A stretch of 35,132 nt of DNA from positions 1 to 35,132 of IMG/VR virus record IMGVR_UViG_3300042383_001511; one strand, written 5' to 3'. Source of the DNA: a virus. Below, piece after piece: positions 1,170-34,833 of the stretch (positions within the stretch are counted from its first letter, which is position 1; each line of letters opens with the position of its first letter). The position numbers were made by a program, and so were the translations under genes. The notes beneath the pieces are model-generated. The model worked only from the letters and a program-made list of their open reading frames with translations, made no database searches and had not been told where the DNA came from.

Positions 1170-1196
1170 TTATCGGAACAATACAATCTAACTTTA
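1170..1196 (-). promoter_or_regulatory. Sigma28-like promoter
   Basis: Read on the minus strand, the -35 box is TAAAGTTA (1189-1196), the spacer is exactly 11 bases, and the -10 box is TCCGATAA (1170-1177). The known sigma28 (FliA) consensus is TAAAGTTT-N11-GCCGATAA. A leader with AAGGAAC then leads to the ATG at 1140. Two other promoters here (3274-3300 and 3680-3706) have the same -35 box and spacing. The match is seen directly; use by sigma28 is inferred. Confidence 0.7.
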
Positions 1197-3273: not shown

Positions 3274-3300
3274 TTATCGACCAAAACAAATCTAACTTTA
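3274..3300 (-). promoter_or_regulatory. Sigma28-like promoter
   Basis: On the minus strand the -35 box TAAAGTTA (3293-3300) is followed by exactly 11 bases and the -10 box GTCGATAA (3274-3281), against the FliA consensus GCCGATAA. It points at the gene at 2931-3224 and the run of small paralogues beyond it. The first 27 bases closely match the promoters at 1170-1196 and 3680-3706. Confidence 0.65.
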
Positions 3301-3348: not shown

Positions 3349-3663
3349 TGTCTATAGGGGAAAACAATTGGTTAAGACCTAGCCAATCTGTGGGATGTAT
3401 AGATCGTTAATGGGCATATGGTAGTAACGGAATCACCTTTATATCTTTAAGGGGTTCATGCCTATAAGACGACCAACGAAGAGTGGTTACAAGCCACAGG
3501 ACTTCGCTATACCAAGGATCTATATATAAGGAAATTTCTAGATTGCTTTAGCAATCAATTCTTAGGGAGTAACTTCTAGCCTAAACGCCCAGAAGTAGCT
3601 TCAAACTCAGGGCGATCTTGACCACTCCCAAGACGCTACTAGCTTAAAGATCTTCTTTTTTTT
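3349..3663 (+). ncRNA. Candidate structured non-coding RNA with pseudoknot
   Basis: About 315 bases without a convincing gene, dense in base-pairing potential. An 8-bp hairpin lies at 3367-3387 (one G-U pair, 5-base loop). ATGGGCAT/ATGCCTAT (3410-3417 with 3458-3465) form an 8-bp stem. GTGGT/GCCAC pair at 3483-3497, GATTGC/GCAATC at 3541-3556, and ACTTCT/AGAAGT at 3572-3596. The loop of the last hairpin contains CGCCC (3586-3590), complementary to GGGCG at 3610-3614, a possible pseudoknot. GCG-A-TCTTG/CAAGACGC form a bulged stem at 3612-3636. The element ends in an 11-base mostly-T tract at 3653-3663, just before the next promoter. The strand is chosen from that T-tract. It does not show the hallmarks of tmRNA, RNase P RNA or a tRNA. 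Confidence 0.5.
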
Positions 3664-3679
3664 GTGTCGAAAATAACCC

Positions 3680-3706
3680 TAAAGTTAGATTTAATAGTGC
3701 CGATAA
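3680..3706 (+). promoter_or_regulatory. Sigma28-like promoter, near-perfect match
   Basis: The -35 box TAAAGTTA (3680-3687), an 11-base spacer and the -10 box GCCGATAA (3699-3706) match the FliA consensus at all -10 positions and 7 of 8 -35 positions. It is followed by GTATAGGGAGG and the gene at 3731. It is the best of the three sigma28-only promoters in the window. Confidence 0.75.
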
Positions 3707-3730
3707 GTATAGGGAGGGAGGAAATAAGCC

Positions 3731-3961
3731 ATGAATAACAGCTTAATAGACAGCTTTTTAGCAGCGATCAATACGGTATCTTACCATAATGCAGCAGAAG
3801 GCAAAAGCTATACAGAGGAAACAACCGCTAGAAATAAAGCCAAGGTGCAACTTCAAGAGCTAAAGCGGCAAATGGTAGAACAATACGGTGTAAAGGAGAC
3901 GCTGAGAATAGCTAGTAGTAAGCCACATCTTGCATTTGCCGAGTTGTGTGACCTAGAATAA
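3731..3961 (+). CDS. Small hypothetical helical protein
   Basis: A 76-residue protein with a strong Shine-Dalgarno site (GGAGG, 8 bases before the ATG). It is basic and helical in the middle (ARNKAKVQLQELKRQMVEQYG), with no membrane segment. It lies directly behind the near-perfect sigma28-like promoter and is followed after 25 bases by a 33-residue acidic protein, with a terminator after both. The two form one early-type unit. Function not recognised; size and charge would suit a host-takeover or regulatory protein, but that is only inference. Confidence 0.75.
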   Translation: MNNSLIDSFLAAINTVSYHNAAEGKSYTEETTARNKAKVQLQELKRQMVEQYGVKETLRIASSKPHLAFAELCDLE

Positions 3962-3986
3962 TTTTTCCCTATAGGAGATTTTTACT

Positions 3987-4088
3987 ATGGAAGAAGTTTA
4001 CGACGAACTAGAAGATATTCCTGTATGGGGTGACGGTGTTACTATCCATGATTTATACGACTTTGTAGATTTCGAGTGGGAAGATTAA
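3987..4088 (+). CDS. Acidic microprotein, 33 aa
   Basis: A short gene with a good ribosome site (AGGAGA, 8 bases before the ATG). The product starts MEEVYDELEDIPVWGDG and ends DFEWED; about a third of residues are Asp or Glu and there is almost no positive charge. It lies between a sigma28-driven gene and a strong terminator, so it is very likely transcribed. Strong acidity in such a small phage protein is compatible with DNA mimicry or inhibition of a basic partner, but nothing in the sequence proves this. Confidence 0.6.
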   Translation: MEEVYDELEDIPVWGDGVTIHDLYDFVDFEWED

Positions 4089-4150
4089 TCCCACTATTCC
4101 CCTTTTAGAACTGGGGGCATGGAAATAAGTTCTATACTCCCCTGTTAGTA

Positions 4151-4188
4151 GACATCCCCTAGTTGCTGGGGGGTGTCATTTCTTTTTA
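4151..4188 (+). terminator. Intrinsic terminator
   Basis: GACATCCCC (4151-4159) pairs with GGGGGTGTC (4169-4177) in a 9-bp stem with one G-U pair and a 9-base loop, followed by ATTTCTTTTT. It closes the unit at 3731-4088. A weaker AGAACT/AGTTCT inverted repeat lies just upstream (about 4117-4139). Confidence 0.8.
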
Positions 4189-4199
4189 TATATAGGAAA

Positions 4200-4376
4200 A
4201 AGTCTGTTTAGTTGGTTGATTAGATTAGGCATCTAGAGTTGATACTAGGTTTAGACGTCTTTTTTGTTGACTATAGGGAGACATCTTGTGGTTGGTTGAC
4301 CAGATTTTGTTGGCATAAAGATTGCTATAGGGAAATTTCTGTACAGGGGAAAATCTACTATAGGGGAAAATTGGGC
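4200..4376 (+). repeat. Non-coding repeat cluster before a composite promoter
   Basis: No gene is visible. The stretch holds two copies of a GTTGGTTG motif (about 4211 and 4291), the palindrome AGACGTCT (4253-4260), and three plus-strand copies of CTATAGGG (4271, 4325, 4358) followed by A-rich bases. A related CAGGGGAAAAT lies between the last two. The same short motifs recur at 3352, 4950-5008 and 5357-5620. They look like dispersed regulatory or recombination sites. Confidence 0.5.
4310..4326 (+). promoter_or_regulatory. Sigma54-like promoter without the sigma28 element
   Basis: TTGGCATAAAGATTGCT has GG and GC at the exact -24/-12 spacing of the RpoN consensus TGGCACG-N4-TTGC. Unlike the five composite promoters, no CCGATA follows 26 bases downstream. 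It would read into the region before the gene at 4471. A near copy (TTGGCACAAAGATTGCT) occurs at 5654-5670. Confidence 0.4.
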
Positions 4377-4424
4377 TGGCACGGTACTTGCTAGGATTTA
4401 ATGTTTTTGGAAATGCTCCGATAC
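4377..4424 (+). promoter_or_regulatory. Composite sigma54-like plus sigma28-like promoter
   Basis: TGGCACG (4377-4383), four bases, then TTGCT (4388-4392) is a perfect RpoN consensus. A sigma28-type -10 box TCCGATAC begins at 4417, 26 bases beyond the C of the -12 element. TTAATGTT lies at its -35 position with an 11-base spacer. Four further copies with the same 26-base distance exist on the minus strand (5294-5342, 6215-6262, 6730-6778, 6838-6886). Confidence 0.7.
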
Positions 4425-4431
4425 CTTTAAT

Positions 4432-4449
4432 GTAGGAAATATATCCTAC
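4432..4449 (+). promoter_or_regulatory. Leader hairpin conserved with the paralogous gene
   Basis: GTAGGA pairs with TCCTAC around a 6-base loop, in the leader of the gene at 4471. The leader of the paralogue (6705-6722 on the other strand) has GTGGGA pairing with TCCCAC around a 6-base loop. One pair has changed A-T to G-C with pairing kept. Both are followed by ACAAAA and a G-run ribosome site. Confidence 0.5.
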
Positions 4450-4470
4450 TACAAAAAACGGGGTGCTATT

Positions 4471-4872
4471 ATGTTTAGCAAGAAAAATACCGACCACGTT
4501 GATACAGTTATGGCTGCAATCATGCTTGCTTTTGCTGGCAAGACTGTCCACAATGCAGAACTTAAAGCCTTCCTGACCACCACATTGCCTGAACTATTTC
4601 CATCGGGTCGTGCTGATGGCTGCATTGAGTTCCTGTCCAATGTTGATTTTAGCTCCACAATGTCCAAGAAGTCGGGCGCTGCAGGAGTCGCTTTCCTTGA
4701 GGGCATTAAAGATGGTGGCAAACGCTACTGGAAAGTTCCAGAATCGCTCGACAATGTAGTTGCCAAGAGCGACTGCACAGAGCTTTCTGCTCCTATTCCA
4801 ACCAAGAAGCGGGTAAATATCCGCTTTGGAGAATATGTTGCTCGCCAAAAAGAGGAGGCTATTGGGGAATAA
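4471..4872 (+). CDS. Hypothetical protein, 133 aa, AT-richer paralogue
   Basis: The ATG at 4471 follows CGGGGTG. This protein and the one at 6284-6685 are both 133 residues and align without large gaps. Shared blocks are TVHNAELK..LP, ELFPSGRADGCIEFL, VDFSS, FLEGIKDGGKRYWKVP and NIRFGEYVA. The middle (GxA.LEGIKDGGKRYW) and the preceding helix suggest a small winged-helix-like or other compact fold. I do not recognise the family and claim no function. It has its own composite promoter, leader hairpin and terminator. Its codon use is far less GC-rich than that of the paralogue. Confidence 0.8.
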   Translation: MFSKKNTDHVDTVMAAIMLAFAGKTVHNAELKAFLTTTLPELFPSGRADGCIEFLSNVDFSSTMSKKSGAAGVAFLEGIKDGGKRYWKVPESLDNVVAKSDCTELSAPIPTKKRVNIRFGEYVARQKEEAIGE

Positions 4873-4882
4873 TAGATTCCCC
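4864..4882 (+). terminator. Hairpin across the stop codon
   Basis: GGGGAAT (4864-4870) and ATTCCCC (4876-4882) pair around the stop codon of the preceding gene. It has no U-tract of its own and precedes the stronger terminator at 4891-4930; it may shield the 3' end. Confidence 0.4.
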
Positions 4883-4890
4883 CTATAAAA

Positions 4891-4944
4891 ATATCTTATG
4901 GGCTGCCAAGAACGGTAGCCTGTAAGATATTCCTTTACGTTTTT
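4891..4944 (+). terminator. Intrinsic terminator
   Basis: ATATCTTA (4891-4898) pairs with TAAGATAT (4923-4930), and inside it GGCTGCC pairs with GGTAGCC (one G-U pair) around AAGAAC. TCCTTTACGTTTTTA follows. It ends the single-gene unit 4471-4872. Confidence 0.75.
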
Positions 4945-5018
4945 ATTGTAGACGTCTGGTGGAATTGTGACAAGATGGTCCGGCTTATCGCCTAGACGTC
5001 TATAGGGAAATAAAAAAA
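4945..5018 (+). repeat. Intergenic AGACGTCT palindromes
   Basis: The palindrome AGACGTCT occurs at 4950-4957 and 4994-5001; the second runs directly into CTATAGGGA (5000-5008). The stretch separates the convergent terminators of the genes at 4471-4872 and 5032-5262. No gene is visible. Confidence 0.5.
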
Positions 5019-5045
5019 AGACCCGGAGTTGTTACTCCGAAGTCT
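5012..5045 (-). terminator. Intrinsic terminator overlapping the stop codon
   Basis: On the minus strand, CGGAGT/ACTCCG arms (5024-5039) with outer AGAC/GTCT pairs (5019-5022 with 5042-5045) are followed by eight T. The TAA of the gene at 5032-5262 lies in the loop/stem, so terminator and coding end are merged. Confidence 0.8.
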
Positions 5046-5262
5046 TGTCTCCCCTAGGAGGGGGTGGGGGTGTAGGATTCTTACGTTGTATCTTAAAAGA
5101 CTCCATTACTCTTTTGTTGTGGGCGGCTCTATCAAATTTGTTGTCAATAGGTTGCGTAGTCTGTACAAGATTTTGCTGTGGTTGGTTGTCAAATCTAAGT
5201 TCTTCTTTAGGCTCAGTTTTCTTTTTGCGATACTCGTTAAGGTCAATAACATTGTTAGCCAT
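5032..5262 (-). CDS. Small proline-rich-tailed protein with VIDLNEYRKKK motif
   Basis: A 76-residue protein with the ATG at 5260-5262 behind GGGAGGA. An open frame extends upstream to 5370 but passes through the promoter, so the shorter start is right. The N-terminus MANNVIDLNEYRKKK resembles a short basic N-terminal motif seen in several phage and bacterial small proteins. The middle is Gln/Asn-rich and probably disordered, and the C-terminus has five prolines (NPTPPPPPRG). It forms a single-gene unit with a composite promoter and a terminator. Function unknown. Confidence 0.75.
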   Translation of the reverse strand: MANNVIDLNEYRKKKTEPKEELRFDNQPQQNLVQTTQPIDNKFDRAAHNKRVMESFKIQRKNPTPPPPPRGDKTSE

Positions 5263-5293
5263 ACTGCTTCCTCCCTTGTTTTGTCCATTATAT

Positions 5294-5342
5294 ATATCGG
5301 AACAATTAAAATAAACTAAAATGTAAGCAAATAGCGTGCCAA
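5294..5342 (-). promoter_or_regulatory. Composite sigma54-like plus sigma28-like promoter
   Basis: On the minus strand TTGGCACG, four bases, then TTGCT (about 5326-5342) is a perfect RpoN consensus. TCCGATAT (5294-5301) starts 26 bases beyond the -12 C, with TTTAGTTT at its -35 position and an 11-base spacer. It drives the gene at 5032-5262. Confidence 0.7.
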
Positions 5343-5528
5343 ATATTTTTGTGTCCAGACGTCCGTCCAAGATTCGCCTAGGAAATTTTGCTTATTGGGG
5401 TACCAACCAACCAAAAACTATAAACAGATCCCTATAAAAATTAACCAGAAAGGTATTTAATTTAGTTGGTTGTTACAGTATGTTACACACCCCCTCTCCT
5501 TGGGGGGTGGGGCTAGACGTCTGCACAA

Positions 5529-5548
5529 TTGGTGGTATAAATCTTGCT
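5529..5548 (+). promoter_or_regulatory. Weak sigma54-like site
   Basis: TGGTATAAATCTTGCT has GG and GC at the exact RpoN spacing, but positions 3-6 differ from the consensus. It lies in the non-coding region and points towards the convergent gene at 5754-5930. No CCGATA element follows. Confidence 0.25.
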
Positions 5549-5582
5549 TATATTAAGGCGAGGCGTCTGACAAGACCAGACA

Positions 5583-5730
5583 AGATTTGTGACTAGCCCA
5601 AATTAACTGGCCAACCAACCAATAAACTGGCTAGCCAGCCAACGCAGACGACCTTGGCACAAAGATTGCTATAGCAAAAACCATGCCAACAGATTTGTGA
5701 CTCGCAAAAATTAACTGGCCAGCCGACCAA
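5583..5730 (+). repeat. 40-base direct repeat pair, 108 bases apart
   Basis: Copies at 5583-5622 and 5691-5730 are identical at 35 of 40 positions. Both begin AGATTTGTGACT, contain AATTAACTGGCCA and end in a CCAACC/CCGACC-like segment. They flank the palindrome CTGGCTAGCCAG and the sigma54-like site at 5654. Confidence 0.65.
5654..5670 (+). promoter_or_regulatory. Sigma54-like site in the non-coding region
   Basis: TTGGCACAAAGATTGCT matches the RpoN -24/-12 consensus closely (TGGCAC, correct spacing, TTGCT). The site at 4310-4326 differs by a single base over 17. It runs into GCTATAGC and the second 40-base repeat and faces the convergent gene at 5754-5930, so any product would be a short RNA or antisense transcript. 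Confidence 0.4.
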
Positions 5731-5739
5731 AACGTGGGC

Positions 5740-5762
5740 AAAAATAGAGGAGGTTACTCCTC
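5740..5762 (-). terminator. Terminator overlapping the stop codon
   Basis: On the minus strand GAGGAG (5757-5762) and CTCCTC (5747-5752) pair around TAAC, which contains the TAA of the gene at 5754-5930. TATTTTTG follows. The layout is the same as the terminator at 5012-5045. Confidence 0.65.
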
Positions 5763-5930
5763 CTCGGTTTCCTCCAACACTTCGACCTTACAAAATTCGC
5801 TTGTCGGGGTATCGTGGTGTATCCGTAGGGTGGTGCCCCCACGGGAAAATTTAATTAACATTGCCCCCGTATCGGGGCACTCGTCGATTGTTGCATTTTC
5901 GGTTATAAAAATTGGAATAAACTCGTCCAT
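5754..5930 (-). CDS. Acidic hypothetical protein, 58 aa
   Basis: The ATG at 5928-5930 follows GGGAGGTGG and is clearly the start; the open frame upstream runs through another gene. The product begins MDEFIPIFITENATIDE and ends EVLEETEEE, strongly acidic, with a small beta-like core (TLRIHHD). It is the second gene of the unit driven by the promoter at 6215-6262. Base composition is GC-rich compared with most of the window. Function unknown. Confidence 0.65.
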   Translation of the reverse strand: MDEFIPIFITENATIDECPDTGAMLIKFSRGGTTLRIHHDTPTSEFCKVEVLEETEEE

Positions 5931-5949
5931 ATCCACCTCCCGTGGGGGC

Positions 5950-6171
5950 TTAGTGCCCCAGGAAATTTTGCATTTTTGTGTCGATTTCGAAACCCTGCTC
6001 CACCGACCCGGGGCCTGCGTGGAGGATTTCGACGACGTTACCCGTATCGTCGGTACCAAGGATAAGCTCCTCCCCCGTGGGGGCATGGATGTGGATAACA
6101 CTCCTCCCGTGGGCACCCTGTGCAACGGAAATTTGGCACTGTTCCAAAATTTCGAGCAAGCTGTTAACCAT
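5950..6171 (-). CDS. Hypothetical protein, 73 aa
   Basis: Starts at an ATG behind CAGGAGG. The N-terminal helix (MVNSLLEILEQCQ) is followed by a His-rich beta-like segment (RSVIHIHAPTGEEL) and a Gly/Asp-rich part. It is the first gene of a two-gene unit with its own composite promoter and terminator. Composition is GC-rich. I do not recognise it. The IHIHAP segment could coordinate a metal, but nothing else supports that. Confidence 0.65.
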   Translation of the reverse strand: MVNSLLEILEQCQISVAQGAHGRSVIHIHAPTGEELILGTDDTGNVVEILHAGPGSVEQGFEIDTKMQNFLGH

Positions 6172-6214
6172 AGCATCCTCCTGTAGGGGGGAACTACCCG
6201 CCCCCCTGTATTTA

Positions 6215-6262
6215 GTATCGGAACATCCACGGAAAACTTAAACACTAGCAAGTACCGTGCCA
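6215..6262 (-). promoter_or_regulatory. Composite sigma54-like plus sigma28-like promoter
   Basis: On the minus strand TGGCACG-GTAC-TTGCT (6247-6262) is a perfect RpoN consensus, with the same four spacer bases as the promoter at 4377. TCCGATAC (6215-6222) lies 26 bases beyond the -12 C, and TTAAGTTT sits at its -35 position (7 of 8 against TAAAGTTT) with an 11-base spacer. It drives 6171 to 5754. Confidence 0.75.
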
Positions 6263-6283
6263 GCCCCCCGGAGGGGGAGGGCC
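6263..6283 (-). terminator. GC-rich hairpin after the 133-aa gene
   Basis: CCCCC/GGGGG arms lie between the stop codon at 6284 and the -24 element of the next promoter. The stem is strong but has no U-tract, so termination is plausible rather than certain. Confidence 0.4.
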
Positions 6284-6685
6284 TTAGCCCTCGTCCGCTA
6301 CCTTGCCCTTAGCCACATACTCGCCAAACCGGATGCAACGGCGGGCCTTGGTGGGGAGGGGGGCTTGCATTGCATCCACATCGGCCATGTGCTTAGCGTC
6401 GGCTGCCGTGGTGGTGGGGACTCGCCAAAAACGCTTGCCACCGTCCTTAATCCCTTCGAGCAGGGCGATGCCCCGGGGGCCGGCCTTGGTGTAGCAGGAT
6501 GCAAAGTCCACGGATGCGAGGAACTCGATAGCCGCATCGGCCCGTCCCCCCGGGAACAGCTCGGGAAGTCCCTGTACCAGGGCCTCCTTTAGGGCGGCAT
6601 TGTGGACAACGTTTCCGCCGAATTTTTCGACAATGTAAGCTGCAACGACTTCGATGTTTTCGCGCCAAGCTGCTTGTTTTGCCAT
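6284..6685 (-). CDS. Hypothetical protein, 133 aa, GC-rich paralogue
   Basis: The ATG at 6683-6685 follows CAGGGGGC. The frame stays open further upstream but there runs through two promoters, so the short start is preferred. The protein is the same length as, and alignable to, the product of 4471-4872: VVHNAALKEAL, LPELFPGGRAD, VDFAS, ALLEGIKDGGKRFWRVP and IRFGEYVAKGK. Its gene is much richer in G and C, especially in third codon positions, than its paralogue. Two tandem composite promoters lie upstream. Function unknown. Confidence 0.8.
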   Translation of the reverse strand: MAKQAAWRENIEVVAAYIVEKFGGNVVHNAALKEALVQGLPELFPGGRADAAIEFLASVDFASCYTKAGPRGIALLEGIKDGGKRFWRVPTTTAADAKHMADVDAMQAPLPTKARRCIRFGEYVAKGKVADEG

Positions 6686-6703
6686 GGTAGCCCCCTGTTG
6701 TTT

Positions 6704-6723
6704 TGTGGGACACATTTCCCACA
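6704..6723 (-). promoter_or_regulatory. Leader hairpin conserved with the paralogous gene
   Basis: TGTGGGA/TCCCACA arms with a 6-base loop lie between the promoter at 6730 and the start at 6685. The hairpin matches the one at 4432-4449 in position and loop size, with one compensatory base-pair change, and is followed by the same ACAAAA and G-run. Confidence 0.5.
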
Positions 6724-6729
6724 TTATTA

Positions 6730-6778
6730 GTATCGGAACAAAACCCAAAACCTTAAATCCTAGCAGGAAGCGTGCCAA
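6730..6778 (-). promoter_or_regulatory. Composite promoter, proximal copy
   Basis: On the minus strand TTGGCACG, four bases, then CTGCT (6762-6778) differs from the RpoN consensus by one base. TCCGATAC (6730-6737) follows at the standard 26-base distance with TTAAGGTT at its -35 position. The initial transcript (AATAATGTGGGAAATG) is shared with the distal copy. Confidence 0.65.
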
Positions 6779-6837
6779 CACACACGCGCTTGCATGTTTG
6801 CCGCGCTTGCTTGCTTGCTGCATTTCCCACATTATTA

Positions 6838-6886
6838 ATATCGGCACTCGCGCAAAAATATAAAATTTAAGCAAGCTCCGTGCCAA
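6838..6886 (-). promoter_or_regulatory. Composite promoter, distal tandem copy
   Basis: On the minus strand TTGGCACG-GAGC-TTGCT (about 6870-6886) is a perfect RpoN consensus, and GCCGATAT (6838-6845) begins 26 bases beyond the -12 C. The sigma28-type -35 position is poor (TTTATATT). It lies exactly 108 bases upstream of the proximal copy and shares the AATAATGTGGGAAATG start, so the promoter itself is duplicated. Confidence 0.65.
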
Positions 6887-22048: not shown

Positions 22049-22903
22049 ATGGCAAAAGATAGAATAGACGAACTCTATGAACAACAATCTTTCTACGAAG
22101 AATACATAAGATACATCCAAGCATTCGAGACAGATCAAGTCAAAAAGACAATCCAAGACATTACACAAGAGATAGTCAAAACTCGACTAGAACAGGCAAT
22201 TTTTGCAATTGTCTTACAGAGTGTGGATAATCCCGACCTAATTGGTTCCTATGTTGCCTCGTTCCAAATTTTTACAGTTGGAAACAGAAACCAAATTTAT
22301 TTCTCACCAGCAACACCCTTGGTTGGTATGACCGAGTATGGTGTCAAGCCATTTAGCATGAAAGAAAAATTGCTTAGCACTGGAAGCGTAAAAATCTCAA
22401 AACAGGGCCACCCCTATAAAACTGTTCCAATATCTAGAGAAATGCCGGGCAAAAATGCAAAACTAGATACTTTGCGTAGTGTGCAAAAAAGAAGCATACC
22501 GGTTTCTAACCAACAGTCGGTTATTTCTTCTAAAGAAATACAAATGCAGGCACGAGTGAACGCTGTTTTGCAAAACGCAAAATTTTCATTTGTTTCTAAG
22601 GCCAAGGATGCCGAGGGGCGGACAATACAAAGATCTGTGGCAAGAGACTTAGACGTCGGAACGCTCATCAAAGAAGAAACTTTTGACGTAGCAACCAAAA
22701 CGGCAAAACCAATCAAGACAAAATACGTAATCTTTAGGACTATGAGTGCCAAGCCAGGTTCCGCTGACTGGATGAACCCGGGCTTTTCAGGAAAAGACCT
22801 ATACGCTAAAGTTTTAAATTGGCAAAGTGAAAATGAGGAAAGAATTTTTGAACAGACGTACAATGAAATAATAAGCAAGGCTATTCGAGGCGATGAGTCA
22901 TGA
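22049..22903 (+). CDS. Putative neck or tail-completion protein, 284 aa
   Basis: The ATG follows AAGGAAATGAAAG. The N-terminus is helical (ELYEQQSFYEEYIRYIQAFE). A basic middle contains VKPFSMKEKLLSTGSVKISK, and the C-terminus has FRTMSAKPGSADWMNPGF, a pattern reminiscent of HK97 gp10-type head-tail joining proteins. It ends ATGA, coupled to the next gene. Position between virion genes and the sheath fits a connector role. Confidence 0.55.
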   Translation: MAKDRIDELYEQQSFYEEYIRYIQAFETDQVKKTIQDITQEIVKTRLEQAIFAIVLQSVDNPDLIGSYVASFQIFTVGNRNQIYFSPATPLVGMTEYGVKPFSMKEKLLSTGSVKISKQGHPYKTVPISREMPGKNAKLDTLRSVQKRSIPVSNQQSVISSKEIQMQARVNAVLQNAKFSFVSKAKDAEGRTIQRSVARDLDVGTLIKEETFDVATKTAKPIKTKYVIFRTMSAKPGSADWMNPGFSGKDLYAKVLNWQSENEERIFEQTYNEIISKAIRGDES

Positions 22904-24722: not shown

Positions 24723-27575
24723 ATGACTTTATCTGCTGTAATCAATGGAACAAGAGTTGTAGTTCCAGGAGTTTATTCTTCTGTAAAAGTGGAAGACAAC
24801 CTTGCAAACGTTGCTCCTGGTCCAAGAAATATCCTAATTATCGGTGAAGCGACTAAAGGCGTTCCTGGTGCTCTACTCGATCTTGGAAGAACCTTTTTCA
24901 CTGATTATCAGTCTGTAAAAAATTATTACGGCTCTGGCCCAATCGTTGATGCGGCAAGAATGCTTTTTTCAAACCAAGCAAGCCCTGTATTTGCTGGATC
25001 ACTTAATAGCCTTTATGTTTATAAAACGAACGATTCAGGCTTAGCTTCAATGAACATCATGCGCGGAGCTAGCCTCTACGCAACTATCGCTGCTGCTGAA
25101 TATGGCGAAGACGGTAATGCAATTTCTGCAAAAATCGAGCAAGCCTCTGCTGAGATTAAGCCTAAAGCAACCGCTAGAGCTTTAATGAGTACAGGAGGTG
25201 GTGCTTATAAAGTTCGTGTATCTGGTGGTGCTGAACAAGAATTTATTGCTCCCCCAGAAGCAACTGTCGCTGAAGTAGTAGCCGTTTTCAATGCGACAGC
25301 AGTCGGATTTTCCGCTACCGGTGGTGAATTAAAATCACTAGCTCTTGTTGATGGTCAAACTTTGACTCTTTCACCAGATGTCGATCACCCAACAAAAATA
25401 ACAATTTCTAGATCGGCAGGATCTTTTCCAGCTTCTATTGTTGCGGGAGACATTGTTTATATTCCCGTGGGTTCTGCTCTTTCCGGCCCAGCTGACGAAA
25501 ATTGTGGTAATTACGAAATTCAATCTACTTCTTCCGCGTCCATGGTTCTAGACCGTCTCGATGCTTGCGTCGCTGCTGGCCAAAGGACAATCCAAGAATG
25601 TGTTGCAATCTCAGGTGCTGTTTCTGGTGACCAAACAGCAGTAGCAACTGCTGAGATGATGGTTTTTGCTCCAGTTACGATTGAAGTGACAGAAGCTACA
25701 AAAAATGGTGCCGCTGCATCCCTAGAAATTTATGCTCCAGACGGACAGATTTGGGCGCCTTCTAAATTTATGGCAACTTCTGCTAAAAAGGCAGCAGTTT
25801 CAAGCAATGTTTCTCTCTCTGCATCTATTTCATTGACAATGAACGGTTCCGAAGGATCGTTTGCTCTTAGCAGTGGTGCTTTTGCTGTAGCTCCTAAAGT
25901 TGGTGAATTACTTATAGTGCCTTCTGACAGTGTTCTTAAGGGAGACGATTCTAAAAACGTCGGCGCTTGGTTGGTTGTATCAGCGGGTGCTTCTGTTATC
26001 AAGGCTGTTAAGTGCATTACTGGATTCCCAGTTAGCAATCCAGTTTCTGTTGCAGCTGTAGCTTTAGACGGCCAGACAATGCCCTTTTATATTAAAGAAA
26101 ACGGTATTAGTTCTGTAGTTGGTCCAGTAATTATTCGTTCTGCTACTGAAAAACAAGTAAGAATCATTGCTTCTCGCTTGACTGACGGTGCTCAATTTCC
26201 TAATTCACCAGTTGGCGGTCGCGTTGTCCTCGAATTAGGATATGCAGGTACTTCTGGTACAGTTACAATTACAAAAGATAAACGACTAAAAACTTCTGTT
26301 GTAGGCGGTTCTGGTGTTAATCTTGATGTATTGTTATCAAAATATAATACAATTGGCGATTTAATTGCATTTATCAATACAAAAACAGGTTATTCAGCAC
26401 GCGTTTCAGACAGCCGCTGGCGCAGCCTTAGTCCATCAGTAATTGACCAAGTTGAAGCTGTTGGTATTTGCGCAGGCCACGAATCTAATTCATTCCCAGG
26501 GCTCTTGAAATCAGACTATTTTGATTTCAAATCACTTGTCGATAACAATTTTGGTTTGATTAGCTTTGTTGAGAACTCTGCATCTCCTGCTTTTGCTGGT
26601 CTTCCAGATGTAATGTCAGCACCCAAATTCCTTGAAGGTGGTTCGGTAGGAGCAACTTCTGGTATTGCCATTCAAGCAGCTCTTGATGCAGCTCTCAAAA
26701 TTGATGTATCACAAGTGATCCCCTTGTTTAGCCGCGATTCCGACAAAGATATCGAAGACGGCCTAACAGACCAAGCAAGTGAATACGCAATTGATGCTAT
26801 TAACTCTGCCGTAAGAGGTCACGTTCAAACAGCTAGCTCTGTACAATTCCAACGTGAACGTTTTGCACTATGTAGTGTCCACAGCTCTTTTGCCACTGCT
26901 AAGCAAAAAGCTGCAGAATTAAGCAGCGAACGTGTTCAAATGGCATTCCAGCAGGTTCGTTCTATTAATTCAAACGGCGATGTCCAATGGTTCTTACCAT
27001 GGATGCTTGCATGTGCAATGGCAGCCGGTCGTGCTCAGGCAATTCTCGGTACATCTCTTCTTAGAAAGAGCTTCCAAGTTTCTAACGTTAAACACGTTGG
27101 CGACCTTAGCCTCTTCTCTGATGTTTTTGTTCCCGACTTTGATGCCGATACTAAAGAATTGGACGAGGCAATCGAAGCTGGTTTGATTGTTCTAAGATCA
27201 GTAACTGGCTTTGGTGTTCGTATGGAATCGCCAGATCTTTCTACTCGTTCAAGACAAAACGATCCAAAAGGCTGGTACTACGAGCGCGTTAACGTTCAGT
27301 TTGTTGTTGATGAAGTTGTAAAAACACTTCGCTCAACCCTCGATAACTTCATTGGCGAAAGAACAACGGATGTTTCACCAACCGTAGTATCTAAGTCAGT
27401 ACAAGATATCTTGGCAAGTTTTGTTGCTCAGGGCGCTCTTAGACAATTCAGTGTTGATTCAATCATTCTCGATGGTAATACATACAAAGTGACAATTAGT
27501 GTATTCCCAGTAGAAGCTGTTGAATTTATCACGGTAGATGTTCTTGCCCGTAGATCAACTGGCGTAACGGCTTAA
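24723..27575 (+). CDS. Tail sheath protein
   Basis: A 950-residue protein, longer than the T4 sheath (about 660). The N-terminus VINGTRVVVPGVYSSVKVEDN and the C-terminal third are typical of sheath proteins: ERFALCSVHSSF, an AGRAQAILGTSLLRK-like segment, GLIVLRSVTGFGVRM, YYERVNVQFVVDEVVKTLRS and KVTISVFPVEAVEFITVDV. The middle (about residues 150-500) is a large beta-rich insertion that would project from the tail surface. It polymerises around the tube and contracts on infection. It is followed by a strong terminator. Confidence 0.88.
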   Translation: MTLSAVINGTRVVVPGVYSSVKVEDNLANVAPGPRNILIIGEATKGVPGALLDLGRTFFTDYQSVKNYYGSGPIVDAARMLFSNQASPVFAGSLNSLYVYKTNDSGLASMNIMRGASLYATIAAAEYGEDGNAISAKIEQASAEIKPKATARALMSTGGGAYKVRVSGGAEQEFIAPPEATVAEVVAVFNATAVGFSATGGELKSLALVDGQTLTLSPDVDHPTKITISRSAGSFPASIVAGDIVYIPVGSALSGPADENCGNYEIQSTSSASMVLDRLDACVAAGQRTIQECVAISGAVSGDQTAVATAEMMVFAPVTIEVTEATKNGAAASLEIYAPDGQIWAPSKFMATSAKKAAVSSNVSLSASISLTMNGSEGSFALSSGAFAVAPKVGELLIVPSDSVLKGDDSKNVGAWLVVSAGASVIKAVKCITGFPVSNPVSVAAVALDGQTMPFYIKENGISSVVGPVIIRSATEKQVRIIASRLTDGAQFPNSPVGGRVVLELGYAGTSGTVTITKDKRLKTSVVGGSGVNLDVLLSKYNTIGDLIAFINTKTGYSARVSDSRWRSLSPSVIDQVEAVGICAGHESNSFPGLLKSDYFDFKSLVDNNFGLISFVENSASPAFAGLPDVMSAPKFLEGGSVGATSGIAIQAALDAALKIDVSQVIPLFSRDSDKDIEDGLTDQASEYAIDAINSAVRGHVQTASSVQFQRERFALCSVHSSFATAKQKAAELSSERVQMAFQQVRSINSNGDVQWFLPWMLACAMAAGRAQAILGTSLLRKSFQVSNVKHVGDLSLFSDVFVPDFDADTKELDEAIEAGLIVLRSVTGFGVRMESPDLSTRSRQNDPKGWYYERVNVQFVVDEVVKTLRSTLDNFIGERTTDVSPTVVSKSVQDILASFVAQGALRQFSVDSIILDGNTYKVTISVFPVEAVEFITVDVLARRSTGVTA

Positions 27576-28394: not shown

Positions 28395-29320
28395 GCGCAA
28401 AATCTAAGGCTTTAAATCTATATAAACATTTTGATCAATATCAAGAATTTGCATGGATGGATGGCCGAGAAGTTGCGATAGATTCAGTAATAGAGCAAAA
28501 ATATTGGGATTTTGCCATTGAAAGAATGAAAATTTTTCATCTTAAAGACAGTGGTCAGCCTAGACCTTGGACCGAAGATGTAATTTTAAATAGAAATTAC
28601 TTCACAAACTGTTACAGAGAACTTGATAAAGTTTCTTTGTGGATTCACGAGTGGCTACAACCATGCCTTTATGATAAGAAGATAGCTTTACTTAATATTA
28701 TGTTCGCTAGATATATCAATTTACCCCAAACTCTTGAAATTGTAGGGAACATTTCTTTAGATAAATCTGAAAATTTAGAATCTCGAGCTAGATTTGCCGC
28801 CATCGAAGGACCTAAATTTAACACAGCTTATTTGTTTCCTCAAGCAGGGTTATCTATTATTGGGGCTAAAACTCGCGAAGAGTTTTTATACGAAAAACTA
28901 CCAGAGCTTGTTCATCCTATTTATGAACTGTTGATGTCCGATAAAAAACATAGTATTCAGCATCTTACAAACAGCATTCATGCAATTTTAGGGTTTAAAA
29001 ATCCATTCCATATGACAGAAATTATGATGGATTTTGGTTACCAATTTCCTGAATATATTGATGAATTTAAATATTTGGAAATGGGTCGTGGAGCAGCACC
29101 CACTTGTAAGATACTCAATCCTAAAGCTAAGCCAGAAGATGTAGCATTCACTTTAATGAAACATCAGCCGGTAGAAAGTTTTCCTTATCTTACACTTAAT
29201 GATAAAAAGATATTAATTACAACATGTAACATTGAAGGGATTGCCTGTGAATTCAGAAAATATTGCAGCCTTCTTGAAGGAAAAGGAAGAAACCGCAAGT
29301 ATTATGGGCAGCCCCTTTGA
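28391..29320 (+). CDS. Alpha-glutamyl/putrescinyl-thymine pyrophosphorylase-like protein (aGPT-Pplase, HMUDK_hel domain)
   Basis: A 309-residue protein coupled to the preceding gene by ATGA. YWDFAIERMKIF (39-49), QPRPWTEDVIL (56-66), NYFTNCYRELDKVSLWI (69-85), GRGAAPTCKI (232-241) and the C-terminal NIEGIACEFRKYCSLLEGKG (280-299) with RNRKYY match the helical domain shared by phage aGPT-Pplases and related 5-hmdU kinases (known family pattern: FxNVYRELDRVT, then LCEFDKYxR..GEGRxRxxY). In known phages these enzymes replace the pyrophosphate of activated hydroxymethyl-thymine in DNA with an amine or amino acid. The kinase, hydroxymethylase and other partners are not in this window. Its place directly before the oxygenase and terminase suggests a step late in DNA maturation. 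Confidence 0.8.
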   Translation: MSAKSKALNLYKHFDQYQEFAWMDGREVAIDSVIEQKYWDFAIERMKIFHLKDSGQPRPWTEDVILNRNYFTNCYRELDKVSLWIHEWLQPCLYDKKIALLNIMFARYINLPQTLEIVGNISLDKSENLESRARFAAIEGPKFNTAYLFPQAGLSIIGAKTREEFLYEKLPELVHPIYELLMSDKKHSIQHLTNSIHAILGFKNPFHMTEIMMDFGYQFPEYIDEFKYLEMGRGAAPTCKILNPKAKPEDVAFTLMKHQPVESFPYLTLNDKKILITTCNIEGIACEFRKYCSLLEGKGRNRKYYGQPL

Positions 29321-29882
29321 AAAAACTAATCTTGGCTCATGTATTACCGAGTACATTCTTCCATCTGAATATGAAAATGTTTTTAAACAGTTAATTAAAA
29401 ATATGCCAGATGAACTTTGGGAAAAAGCAGCTATAGGAGCGGGCCAAAGGCTTGTTCCATCTGCCAGACAATGCGATATATTATTTTTAACCGCCGGAGC
29501 TCAAAATAATAGTATTCTAAAAACATTAGATACCTATGTTTTAAACGTTTTTAAAAAAGTTATGAATTCTTATCAAGAAGAAAATCATGTTCTAATCACC
29601 GCAGATGAAGGCTTCCAGATACTCAAATATCATGAAGGCGGCTTTTATAAAGTTCATGTTGATGGTGGTGAAAACTTTTTATATAGAAAAGTTTCTGGTA
29701 TTTTATATATAAACGATGATTATGATGGAGGCGAATTAGAATTTACTAAATTTAATTTAAAAATTAAACCCAAAAAAAATTCAATTTTATTATTTCCATC
29801 AAATTATGCATACGAACATATTGCTCATACGGTTACAAAAGGTGAAAAAATATGTATAGTTTCGTGGTTTTTTTCAAGATAA
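29247..29882 (+). CDS. Prolyl-4-hydroxylase-type 2OG-Fe(II) oxygenase
   Basis: The GTG at 29247 follows AAGGGA at ideal distance and overlaps the aGPT-Pplase gene by 74 bases; the ATG at 29304 would overlap by 17 but has a poor ribosome site. The 211-residue protein carries LKYHEGGFYKVHVDG (His137 and Asp139, the HxD metal pair), RKVSGILYINDDYDGGELEF, and HIAHTVTKGEKICIVSWFF with His194 and Lys201 in the 2-oxoglutarate-binding position. This is the P4H-like fold. Substrates in phages are mostly unknown. Adjacency to the thymine-modifying enzyme makes a modified base, or a protein bound to DNA during packaging, a reasonable guess. Confidence 0.78.
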   Translation: MNSENIAAFLKEKEETASIMGSPFEKTNLGSCITEYILPSEYENVFKQLIKNMPDELWEKAAIGAGQRLVPSARQCDILFLTAGAQNNSILKTLDTYVLNVFKKVMNSYQEENHVLITADEGFQILKYHEGGFYKVHVDGGENFLYRKVSGILYINDDYDGGELEFTKFNLKIKPKKNSILLFPSNYAYEHIAHTVTKGEKICIVSWFFSR

Positions 29883-29888
29883 ATAAAT

Positions 29889-31808
29889 ATGAGTAAAAAA
29901 CAGCAATTAACAAATGAAAATCAATTAAATGCAGCACTAAACCAGCTGTATGAAGAGCAGTTTTTTGCTGTTTGTGAAAGTAAAGCCCAGCTTAAACAAT
30001 GGATTAAGACATTTTTAGATATTGATTTGCCAGACTGCACTGTGGATGAAAACAGTAACTCTAATCCAATGGATTTTATTTGGGATGTCTACTCAGCAGC
30101 TAAAGACGGCGACCCTAACAGAACTACATTTGTAGTAGCTGCGAGTCGTAACTCGGCAAAAACGCTCGCATCTTCTATCATTGAATTCTTATTAATGGTG
30201 CATTTTGCCCGAGACATAGTACACATGGCAGCAATTTTGGACCAATCTTTAGCGGCGATTCGATACTTAGATAAATATCTAGCTCTGCCGATTATTTCTA
30301 ATTTTGCCAAAACCGACAGCAAACGTATTAAAGAGCTTAATAGACTACCGCCGTCGCCTCATCGACCCGTTGGTTACAGCAAACTACAAGTCGTTGTGTC
30401 GACTAAAAAATCTGCAAACGCGCAACGTGCGTCTTGTTTGATATTTGATGAGCTAGATCTTATTGATAAAGACATTCTTTCCGAGGCCACTTTTATTGCA
30501 GACCCAGACCGCTCTGGTAAACCTCCAATATTTATTTACCTTTCATCTCGTAAATCCGGTTCTGGACCAATTCAACAAAAAATTGACGAAGCAGATATGC
30601 CAAATTCGGGCATCAGATTGCACAAATGGTCGATTGTAGATTGGATGCAAGCTTGTCCGTCAGAGCGCCATAAGCCAGAATTGCCACAAAGCATGCTCCA
30701 TGTCCATCCCGAAACGCTAGAAGTATTGCCAAATAATGCATTCAATGCTCTTAATCCGGAATCTAAGGCTGTATATTCGTCTATTTTGGCATACGAAGGG
30801 TGCAAAACCTGTCCAGTGTTTTCTATTTGTCGCACCAAATCTGTTAAACAACAGTCTAAATCAAAAATGTTACGCGATTTAGGCTTTGTTAAGAACACTT
30901 TACTCAATGCTGGTGATCCAGATAAGATTAATGCACAGATTCTTAATTTAAAACCTGAGTCTTCGGGCATTGTTTTTAACAAATTTAATCGAAATATTCA
31001 CGTAAAATCAGCACAAGAATGCTGGAATTTCGCTTTCAATAGTTTTCCAACAGACCGTTTTGGTAATATACGAGATATTTCAAAAGACGAGTTGGTTAGG
31101 GAGCTCAGAGCAAATGGTTGGCGATTGCATTGTGGTGTAGATTTTGGATTCATTGACCCAGCAGTAGCCGTTTTAATAGCGTATAAAAAATCCGATGATA
31201 AAGTACTTGTTCTACACACAGAACATTCAACTGGATACGCTAACCCAGACTGGCTAGCTTTTGTAAAAGAAAACGTATATTTGCGATATGGATTTGATTT
31301 GTTATGCCCAGATACTGCAGATAAGTCTTCAACTTCTGTAGCGGGTAGCATGAATATGCCAGCTAGGGGCGAAAAACCATTAACAATCGATACAGGTGTA
31401 TCGTGGATTCGTTCAAAATTGTGGAATGCAATGAGACAACAAGCCCATTTCATTATTTTAGATGACCCTAAAAATTTGTTTTTGATTAAATGCATGGAAA
31501 ATTGGACATACGCAAAAGGCGCCATGGGGTATGATTACTCCCGTTTTGCTGACGACGACTTTACTCACGGACCTGACGCCCTTCGTTATGCAATTGACCC
31601 ATTTATAACCAGCAATGCATCTGTTATTCAAGCTTCTCAAGCCGATCAGTTTGATTATACTAAAAAGCCTAGCTTTACTACTGTCGAAGGCATGCAAGAA
31701 GCGTTGCGTATGCATTATGCTGCTGAATACAATATAGATATTAAGAAAAAGAACCAAGAAGACGAAGAAAAAATGTTAAAATCGGGTAGCGCAACTATTT
31801 TATTTTAG
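29889..31808 (+). CDS. terL: Large terminase subunit (TerL)
   Basis: A 639-residue protein. The ATPase Walker A segment is FVVAASRNSAKT (81-92), with Ala where many enzymes have Gly. Walker B is CLIFDELDLID (183-193). The C-terminal nuclease has three expected acidic residues: Asp418 in GVDFGFIDPAVAVLIAY, Asp475 in DTADKSS and Asp563 in FTHGPDALRYAI. A Cys-rich insert (YEGCKTCPVFSICR, about residues 300-315) lies between the two domains. The enzyme pumps and cuts phage DNA into heads at the portal. The gene follows the oxygenase closely and precedes a structural gene and the portal. Confidence 0.92.
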   Translation: MSKKQQLTNENQLNAALNQLYEEQFFAVCESKAQLKQWIKTFLDIDLPDCTVDENSNSNPMDFIWDVYSAAKDGDPNRTTFVVAASRNSAKTLASSIIEFLLMVHFARDIVHMAAILDQSLAAIRYLDKYLALPIISNFAKTDSKRIKELNRLPPSPHRPVGYSKLQVVVSTKKSANAQRASCLIFDELDLIDKDILSEATFIADPDRSGKPPIFIYLSSRKSGSGPIQQKIDEADMPNSGIRLHKWSIVDWMQACPSERHKPELPQSMLHVHPETLEVLPNNAFNALNPESKAVYSSILAYEGCKTCPVFSICRTKSVKQQSKSKMLRDLGFVKNTLLNAGDPDKINAQILNLKPESSGIVFNKFNRNIHVKSAQECWNFAFNSFPTDRFGNIRDISKDELVRELRANGWRLHCGVDFGFIDPAVAVLIAYKKSDDKVLVLHTEHSTGYANPDWLAFVKENVYLRYGFDLLCPDTADKSSTSVAGSMNMPARGEKPLTIDTGVSWIRSKLWNAMRQQAHFIILDDPKNLFLIKCMENWTYAKGAMGYDYSRFADDDFTHGPDALRYAIDPFITSNASVIQASQADQFDYTKKPSFTTVEGMQEALRMHYAAEYNIDIKKKNQEDEEKMLKSGSATILF

Positions 31809-32814: not shown

Positions 32815-34833
32815 ATGGGACTTTTTGACTTTTTGAAGAAAAATAAAAAAGGGGAAGTCTCCTTTTATGTTGATGATTTATCAAAATCAGTCAAACCGCT
32901 CGAAGACAACGAGCTTATTAAAGATAAAATTGAACAAAGCAAAGCTGTATTTAGTCTAGAATCTAGAAATGCTAGTTCAAATAGCCTTTTTGAGAAAAAA
33001 GGGCGCATGTCCGATAAGGAATTGCGTGAGTTAGCATATTACGACTCCATAATTTCGTTAATCATTGACACCCGCGCTAACCAATCCATGTCGTTTGGAA
33101 GAAAATCTGCAAATAAATATGATCGTGGATTCGTTTTGCGAGAAGTAATCCCTGTTCAAATTGATAGTATGATTTCCCAACAAGAAAAAGAAGAGGAAAT
33201 CAAATTTCGTACAGAGCTTTCAAATGTAATTTTTAAATATGTTTTAAACTGCGGCTCAACCAATAGGTCAATTCTTGACCATGTGTTCCAAGGCTCTGAT
33301 ACTACGTTTAAAACATGTAATTTAGCCGAATTTTTAGGCGCTCAATCGCGCAACCTACTCGTCTATGGTCGTTGTGCTACGCAAATAATTAGAAGTAAAG
33401 AAGGTGTGCCTGTTCTTTTCCGTCCAGTTCCGGTTGAGTCTATTTTTAGAGTTTTAGACCAAGCAGATGTAGCTTTGTCTGGTAACGATAGAGATGTTGC
33501 AGACCAATCAGAAGATGACCTAAAAGATTATAAAAATATCGAAAAAGGTCGTCGCCCAATTGCATATGTTCAAAGAATTGATGGTAAAAACGTAGCATTC
33601 TTTACGGAAGATGATTTGGTCGTCACCTATCTTCAAAAACAAGCACATGAAAACCTTGATGGTTATCCAATGGCACCAATCGAAAAGGCTTTTTATGCCG
33701 TTTCGATGCATTTCTATGCTCAACAATACCTCCAGAATTCTTTTACTAAGGGTTTAGCGACTAAAGGTATTATTAACCTTAAAACACAAGAAACCGGCGT
33801 AGTAAGCCCAGAGCAAGCGGAAGCTTTTAGAAAACTTTTCAGCAATTATGTAGCTCGAAATGATAACTCTGCTACTATTCCAATTGTTGCTGGTCCAATT
33901 GACGTAGAATTTGTGCCGCTTAACATTACTGCCAAAGATCTTGAATTTAATAATTTATATCAACGCGTTTTAATGATTGTTTGTGGAGCATTCCAAATTT
34001 CCCCACAAGAAATTGGCTTTGGTGCCCTTGATTCCGCCAAACCAACTATGGGCGATGCTGGAAAACAAGAGCAGATTGTCCAAGGCGAAGAGCGCGGCCT
34101 CCGTCAGCTTATGGAAACTTTGTTCGATTTGCTTAATGACCTAGTTGCAGATTCGTTTCCTCAATCAAAAGACATTCTTCGATTAGAGCCTATTGGTTTA
34201 GGCCAAAACACTAAAGAAGCCGATCTAGCTATTTACAAAGAAGAGCTACAAACTTCTGGTACATTTGGAAAAATTTGGTCCGACAGCGAGCGGCTGGACG
34301 TGTTTCCTTTTGGTGGTGACGTGCCAACATCGCCCATTTTTCATCAATCTGTTGCTAAATACATGAAAATGTCTGAGTTAAGACATTATTTTTTTAAAGA
34401 AAAAGATGCATTAAAAAAACCAGAATTTGATTTTTTCATTGATCCAGCAATTAACGACGCTTATCAAAAACAAAAAGGCAAAGTTCCGCAAATGCAAGCA
34501 GAGCAGATGAAGCTGCAAACAGAGCAGCTAGAAATGCAAGCTCAGCAGATGGAAACTCAAATGCAAGCTCAGCAACAGCAGGGTGGGCAACAACAGCAAA
34601 ATGAACAACAAGGCGAGCAAGCTCAGACTGAAAACGAGCAAAACGAGAGTGAAGAGCAATTAAAACAAATGCAGGAAAAGCATGAGCAAGAAATGAAAAT
34701 GAAAAAAGAGCAGCATGAGCAAAAAATGCAACATGCAGAAGAAAAACATTCGGCTACGATTGAATCAAAAGGCAAAAAGTCTATAGGTAAATCCCTAAAA
34801 CAACTCCTAGAAGAAGCCGCTAAACCCAAATAA
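32815..34833 (+). CDS. Portal protein
   Basis: A 672-residue protein. The N-terminal part includes RELAYYDSIISLIIDTRANQ and SFGRKSANKYDRGFVLREVI. The middle has the portal-type GRCATQIIRSKEGVPVLFRP and PMAPIEKAFYAVSMHFYAQQ. FQISPQEIGFGALDSAKPTM then GDAGKQEQIVQGEERGLRQL correspond to the hairpin-clip region of phage portals. The C-terminus (after about residue 560) is an extremely Gln/Glu/Met-rich, repetitive coiled coil, longer than usual and likely a barrel or disordered extension. The protein forms the dodecameric ring through which DNA enters. Confidence 0.87.
   Translation: MGLFDFLKKNKKGEVSFYVDDLSKSVKPLEDNELIKDKIEQSKAVFSLESRNASSNSLFEKKGRMSDKELRELAYYDSIISLIIDTRANQSMSFGRKSANKYDRGFVLREVIPVQIDSMISQQEKEEEIKFRTELSNVIFKYVLNCGSTNRSILDHVFQGSDTTFKTCNLAEFLGAQSRNLLVYGRCATQIIRSKEGVPVLFRPVPVESIFRVLDQADVALSGNDRDVADQSEDDLKDYKNIEKGRRPIAYVQRIDGKNVAFFTEDDLVVTYLQKQAHENLDGYPMAPIEKAFYAVSMHFYAQQYLQNSFTKGLATKGIINLKTQETGVVSPEQAEAFRKLFSNYVARNDNSATIPIVAGPIDVEFVPLNITAKDLEFNNLYQRVLMIVCGAFQISPQEIGFGALDSAKPTMGDAGKQEQIVQGEERGLRQLMETLFDLLNDLVADSFPQSKDILRLEPIGLGQNTKEADLAIYKEELQTSGTFGKIWSDSERLDVFPFGGDVPTSPIFHQSVAKYMKMSELRHYFFKEKDALKKPEFDFFIDPAINDAYQKQKGKVPQMQAEQMKLQTEQLEMQAQQMETQMQAQQQQGGQQQQNEQQGEQAQTENEQNESEEQLKQMQEKHEQEMKMKKEQHEQKMQHAEEKHSATIESKGKKSIGKSLKQLLEEAAKPK

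Follow-up and report, generated by a model that had tools for sequence, protein, structure and literature searches.

Sigma28-type promoters joined to sigma54-type elements in a myovirus fragment: candidate docking sites for a host RNA polymerase

What binds a DNA unit that combines the hallmarks of two bacterial sigma factors, and what does it do for the phage that carries it? The question is raised by a 35-kb myovirus fragment (IMG/VR record IMGVR_UViG_3300042383_001511, 35,132 nucleotides; this whole stretch is referred to as the window), which contains five copies of the sequence TGGCACG-N4-(T/C)TGCT. An earlier note on this DNA had described a -10 box 26 bases past the -12 C of each copy and, in most copies, a T-rich box 11 bases before it. 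We confirm the five copies and their spacing, CCGATA following after exactly 26 bases from the -12 C in 5/5, and find the T-rich, -35-like box 11 bases ahead of (T/G)CCGATA in all five (TTAAGTTT, TTTAGTTT, TTAATGTT, TTAAGGTT and TTTATATT). Each unit is composed of two separate modules, a sigma28 (FliA)-type promoter (module 1) and a sigma54-type element (module 2). The explanation that we favour, with a confidence somewhat short of even, is that the units are FliA-type promoters read by the host combined with docking sites for the host's sigma54 RNA polymerase (E-sigma54), which would compete with these promoters or gate them. The records examined here are fragments, and orientations and promoters were called by pattern.

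Layout and origin of the five units

The first unit lies on the plus strand, where the predicted sigma54-type element (C)TGGCACGGTACTTGCT (4377..4392), at the 98th percentile of E. coli sigma54 sites, is followed 4 bp past its end by the sigma28-type promoter TTTAATGTTTTTGGAAATGCTCCGATA (4397..4423). The other four are on the minus strand, and their elements were located both by the pattern and by a position weight matrix (PWM) of E. coli sites: (T)TGGCACGCTATTTGCT (5326..5341) with the promoter TTTAGTTT-N11-TCCGATAT (5295..5322); (C)TGGCACGGTACTTGCT (6247..6262) with TTAAGTTT-N11-TCCGATAC (6216..6242), which matches 13/16 consensus positions; the CTGCT variant (T)TGGCACGCTTCCTGCT (6762..6777) with TTAAGGTT-N11-TCCGATAC (6731..6757); and (T)TGGCACGGAGCTTGCT (6870..6885), the outer of two tandem composites, with TTTATATT-N11-GCCGATAT (6839..6865), whose -35 box is the weakest. 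All of the elements reported earlier are thus real, three of the minus-strand ones having been placed one base upstream of the T of TGG. Overlooked were a single sigma54-type element without a sigma28 box of its own (4311..4326, plus strand), an inverted pair of such elements (5655..5688; 34 bp, gap 2) in a form that recurs in many other phages, and three stand-alone sigma28-type promoters at 1196 (-), 3300 (-) and 3680 (+). Allowing up to 2 mismatches, TGGCACGN4TTGCT has 10 matches in the window compared to 2.1 expected, a count that 0/100 shuffles reach, and CCGATA occurs 25 times compared to 10.8 expected.

The five units are mutually 60-73% identical over ~66 nt, with unrelated upstream flanks. 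As they are related by duplication, their fixed 26-base spacing does not represent five independent events; on this evidence duplication accounts for part of it, and the spacing, which had been taken to argue for selection with duplication as a possible contributor, becomes the weaker evidence. The closest relatives of the window are the metagenomic phages G004 (169 kb), G005 (107 kb) and G001 (105 kb), and in G004 the sigma54 element takes the form of a 34-bp inverted pair, TGGCAY-N5-TTGCTAYAGCAA-N5-RTGCCA, that stands 9, 19 or 37 bp before the T-box of a sigma28-type promoter, with a T-box to -10 spacing 2 bp longer than in the window. The 26-base spacing is therefore a feature of the window family and no general rule, and the proposal that the joined element forms one recognition unit finds no support: the modules are variably spaced in G004, and other phages carry the sigma54 element in either orientation without a sigma28 box. 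A scan of viral contigs for the exact composite pattern gave 26 matches, about the estimated chance number and mostly unrelated.

The FliA-type promoter and its reader

In both of its boxes and in the 11 bases between them, module 1 fits the FliA consensus TAAAGTTT-N11-GCCGATAA, as quoted in PMC2859248, and this supports the FliA part of the earlier proposal. The stand-alone window copies, TAAAGTTAGATTTAATAGTGCCGATAA (3680..3706, plus strand, 15/16), TAAAGTTAGATTTGTTTTGGTCGATAA (3274..3300, minus strand) and TAAAGTTAGATTGTATTGTTCCGATAA (1170..1196, minus strand), score 14-15/16 against this consensus, whereas one composite scores 13/16, two score 12/16 and two are lower. G004 contains 19 sites of at least 13/16 with a spacer of 11, as compared to 1.4 in shuffles. 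The exact sequence TAAAGTT-N13-CCGATAA occurs twice in the window and three times in G004 (where 14 more copies have 1 mismatch), while control patterns gave at most 1 match per strand at 2 mismatches. Sigma28-type promoters are located directly upstream of a ribosome-binding site (RBS) and start codon in both the window and G004, the latter having ~18 stand-alone copies at 106-137 kb, each immediately ahead of an RBS and ATG, and a conserved AGATT follows the -35 core. Sigma70-type promoters show no excess over chance in the first 9 kb of the window (21 vs 22.4). Judged by pattern and placement, module 1 is the promoter type that recurs in this phage lineage.

Host FliA is the likeliest reader of these promoters, because no phage sigma factor with a region 2 was found. 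No Sigma70_r2 or sigma70-ECF (extracytoplasmic function) match is present in G000 and G004, and neither holds a homologue of the sigma factor of Myxococcus phage Mx1, the nearest isolate by protein (28-32% identity), with the limits that the records may be incomplete and that Pfam scored Mx1's own sigma below its cut-off. Domains of sigma54 activators (AAA+ enhancer-binding proteins) were likewise sought in the phages and none was found; a host activator is possible. The search that the earlier note had called for, aimed at a phage-encoded sigma factor or enhancer-binding protein, therefore yielded neither, which is in line with host factors. A phage factor undetectable by profile is a possible reader. 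The relatives encode a conserved Cys-rich protein of ~188 residues near the portal gene (L079:1291-1857, L076:1294-1857 and L077:1297-1857, all on the minus strand; the gene is expected just beyond the right end of the window) with a sub-threshold Sigma70_r4-like helix-turn-helix. Its candidacy was also approached by structure, and the model was too poor to use (mean predicted local distance difference test score, pLDDT, of 39).

Sigma54-type elements within and beyond the window

Module 2 follows the sigma54 pattern TGGCAYR-N4-TTGCW with its strict spacing, the copy at 6777 having CTGCT. The RpoN part of the earlier proposal agrees with site statistics, as the five window elements fall between the 58th and 98th percentile of 50 intergenic E. 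coli sites determined by chromatin immunoprecipitation sequencing (PMC4591121), from which the PWM was built; what fails is its tie to module 1. Scanning phages with this PWM returned 166 sites, as compared to a mean of 5.75 for column-permuted matrices. Exact half-sites with the N4 spacing number 142 in 33 phage records (1.73 Mb), as compared to 0-2 for each altered spacing or reversed pattern; many of these records were picked for holding a pair, a choice that does not apply to the extra sites, G045, G038 and the window. In a test near arrays anchored on GGC and TGC only, the free columns follow the E. coli frequencies: C/T at column 6 is 0.52/0.42 (E. coli 0.48/0.42), G/A at column 7 is 0.67/0.29 (0.54/0.34) and A/T at column 16 is 0.46/0.41 (0.56/0.32). 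Column 7 is a purine in 51/51 half-sites of strict pairs without this having been imposed. This column-by-column match with E. coli sites is strong evidence that module 2 has the specificity of sigma54, and suggests that host E-sigma54 binds the elements. We do not read the 34-bp pair as a hairpin, since the N4 bases of its two halves generally do not pair.

The strict gap-2 pair is present in 29 stretches of viral contigs, and a search of 257 Gb of bacterial genome contigs found none. Among the matches listed, pairs of variable gap, convergent or divergent, occur in at least 100+ viral stretches, with convergent gaps mainly of 1-5 and divergent gaps mainly of 6-10 and 15-20, and some phages carry alternating arrays of up to nine elements, a named example being the Demerecviridae phage 234P7B of Vibrio crassostreae. 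The elements avoid long open reading frames (39/95 inside vs 80 expected). Group B of the array phages encodes a protein with a weak sigma-factor match (L089:962-1666, minus strand; phrog_351, E-value 5e-4), and GGGGGAGGGGG-like G tracts adjoin several arrays (L094, L212 and L090). In G004, AACAGARYTCTGTT palindromes accompany the sigma54-type pairs at 103.3-105.1 kb (L055:3300-5100), and are possibly a second operator.

The preferred gaps of the inverted pairs and alternating arrays raise the alternative that the element, which would then only look like the sigma54 consensus, is the site of a dimeric regulator, encoded by the phage or by the host and distinct from RNA polymerase, through which the neighbouring sigma28- or sigma70-type promoter is activated or repressed. 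Such a protein would also suit elements that lie upstream of promoters in either orientation, and the window elements are centred near -47 of the sigma28 start by our estimate, close to the position of CRP at the aer promoter (PMC2859248). A family of ~133-residue paralogues behind composite promoters could supply autoregulators; it comprises the 133-residue gene at 4471..4872 (plus strand) and its 134-residue paralogue at 6284..6688 (minus strand) in the window, and genes at 102244, 104457 and 105494 in G004, and its predicted fold is weakly winged-helix-like (pLDDT 73; best PDB E-value 0.12). However, this family is confined to the window's phage lineage, a BLASTP search for a protein family common to the array phage groups found none at its sensitivity, and every degenerate column agrees with sigma54. 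A host regulator would, moreover, be expected to have operators in host genomes, yet none of the bacterial contigs searched contained the gap-2 pair. We regard a dimeric regulator as somewhat unlikely, although it is a serious contender.

Many arrays are linked to terminase genes, and the element could instead belong to an array for packaging (cos/pac) or for the origin of replication, to which a terminase or initiator binds and whose proximity to promoters is incidental. The large terminase gene (TerL) is transcribed away from the array in 74/220 loci, a gene in the small-terminase position starts ~290 bp away in 57 loci, and the regular alternating arrays resemble iterons. But arrays also lie far from TerL, which is at 29.9 kb in the window and at ~78-79 kb in G004, where the arrays are at 102-105 kb; the element is common to the phage groups and no such protein is; and agreement with sigma54 statistics would be coincidence. 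A packaging or origin function is very improbable.

The orientation of the elements bears on a third alternative, in which each unit is a pair of tandem promoters: helped by an activator of the host, host E-sigma54 would start 12 nt past the -12 C and host E-sigma28 further down, so that either sigma factor switches the gene on and ties it to the motile state. All five window elements face their gene and match the consensus, sigma54 drives phage genes in phage YuA, and Vibrio phage 11895-B1 (L200:17821) has TTGGCACGATTCTTGC shortly before an RBS and ATG in the ordinary single sigma54 layout. In most other phages examined, by contrast, the elements do not point toward the gene. They usually lie upstream of sigma70- or sigma28-type promoters and are often directed away from the gene: at terminase-linked arrays the nearest element is so directed in 45/55 loci, several of which have a sigma70-like promoter between array and gene, and in G027 TATAAT boxes are preceded at ~90-110 bp by elements in either orientation, with minus-strand ones ahead of plus-strand genes. 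Elements so placed are therefore not simply the promoters of those genes. As no activator was found in the phages either, tandem promoters are a rather improbable account. Cyanophages with a related TerL have no elements, and cyanobacteria are not known to have sigma54. The absence fits a sigma54 reading only weakly, as Aeromonas phage phiA008 likewise has none.

Docking beside promoters, known systems and genomic setting

In the explanation that we favour, the FliA-type promoter of each unit, read by the host, would drive a small phage gene, and host E-sigma54 would dock at the element beside it. In the window some 4 bp lie between the end of the -12 box and the T-rich -35 region of the sigma28 promoter, and therefore E-sigma54 and E-sigma28 should exclude each other. 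The closed complex of E-sigma54 is silent without an AAA+ activator; once docked, it would hold the sigma28 promoter down until displaced, activated or titrated, and the inverted pairs and arrays elsewhere would be denser docking sites beside sigma70-type promoters. Docking by a conserved host protein is favoured because the array phages have no protein family in common and the RpoN DNA-binding domain is present in 0/23 records, and gating is favoured because there are known cases in E. coli of E-sigma54 repressing sigma70 promoters that overlap its sites, the -12 C being present in all observed cases (PMC4551910). There, as in the window, a -24/-12 element overlaps or abuts a -35/-10 promoter and keeps the consensus -12 C; the E. 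coli cases are chromosomal, individual and have a sigma70 partner, whereas the window has a repeated phage module with a sigma28-type partner. What the analysis shows directly is the sequences, their geometry and their recurrence, both in relatives and in unrelated phages; from these patterns we infer binding by host FliA and host E-sigma54, with competition or gating as the outcome.

Several observations weigh against docking and gating. The gap preference of the inverted pairs would be easier to understand if a dimeric regulator bound them than if a monomeric sigma factor did, and with the strict gap-2 pair absent from bacterial genomes, hosts are not known to use it. In the composites the -35 box is weaker than in the stand-alone promoters, a difference that an activator would fit too, and the five window copies being duplicates, their fixed spacing weighs less than is apparent. 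A wider claim, which we put forward tentatively and rate distinctly below even, is that many unrelated phage groups share one device, in which consensus sigma54 inverted pairs and arrays capture silent host E-sigma54 so as to gate or insulate neighbouring promoters or to titrate the enzyme, the window composites being its flagellar-sigma version.

Phage use of sigma54 has been described as rare (PMC5053324). Pseudomonas aeruginosa phage YuA depends on host sigma54 according to Ceyssens et al. 2008, as cited in PMC5053324, and its record (AM749441) carries -24/-12 features. YuA thus resembles the window as phage DNA with -24/-12 sites read by host sigma54, a reading that is predicted for the window. 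However, the YuA sites are single, drive structural genes and are further from consensus (in the first 50 kb no site matches perfectly, and the single one with 1 mismatch lies elsewhere), and neither arrays or inverted pairs nor a sigma28 partner were noted. The E. coli aer promoter, which is sigma28-dependent and activated by CRP from -49.5 (PMC2859248), likewise combines a weak sigma28 core with a protein-binding site similarly far upstream, a CRP site taking the place of the sigma54-type element. Module 1 shares the -35 box, 11-base spacer and -10 box of FliA flagellar promoters, but it precedes small phage genes, occurs in multiple near-identical copies and has AGATT after the -35 core. 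Text searches, which left most subscription papers uncovered, found no earlier reports of phage sigma54 arrays, sigma54-sigma28 composites or FliA-read phage promoters.

Downstream of the second and third composites are genes of 76 (5032..5262) and 73 residues (5950..6171), both on the minus strand. The surrounding regulatory region (4253-5522) is also crowded with AGACGTCT palindromes (AGACGTC, 11 vs 1.4 expected) and GGTTGGTTG repeats (5 vs 0.2 expected), and CTATAGGG, which resembles T7-type promoter cores, has 6 copies at 3352-5007, all inside 1.7 kb, as compared to 0.56 expected. Further along, the window encodes a tail sheath (24723-27575), TerL (29889-31808) and a portal protein (32815-34833), and G004, G005 and G001 are 79-90% identical to it in the sheath and 85-91% in the portal. 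No direct DNA relative was found among named phages, and a portal alignment against genome contigs, aimed at the host, found no relative. The product of 28391-29320 matches the helical domain of 5-hydroxymethyldeoxyuridine (5-hmdU) DNA kinase (PF18723, E-value 1.5e-22), which suggests hypermodified DNA; it is followed by a 2-oxoglutarate-Fe(II) oxygenase gene (29232-29882), and 22049-22903 has a weak HORMA-domain match (E-value 9e-4, below the cut-off).

If the elements bind E-sigma54, a silent form of the polymerase would tie many kinds of phages to the regulation of nitrogen, the envelope or flagella, and the flagellar sigma factor would be an additional tie for the window lineage, so that the outcome of infection could depend on the motility state. 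If their binder is a different protein, there is a widespread phage-linked regulator of sigma54-like specificity that awaits discovery. On the former account, phages may be wired to a form of the host polymerase that was previously thought relevant to very few of them.

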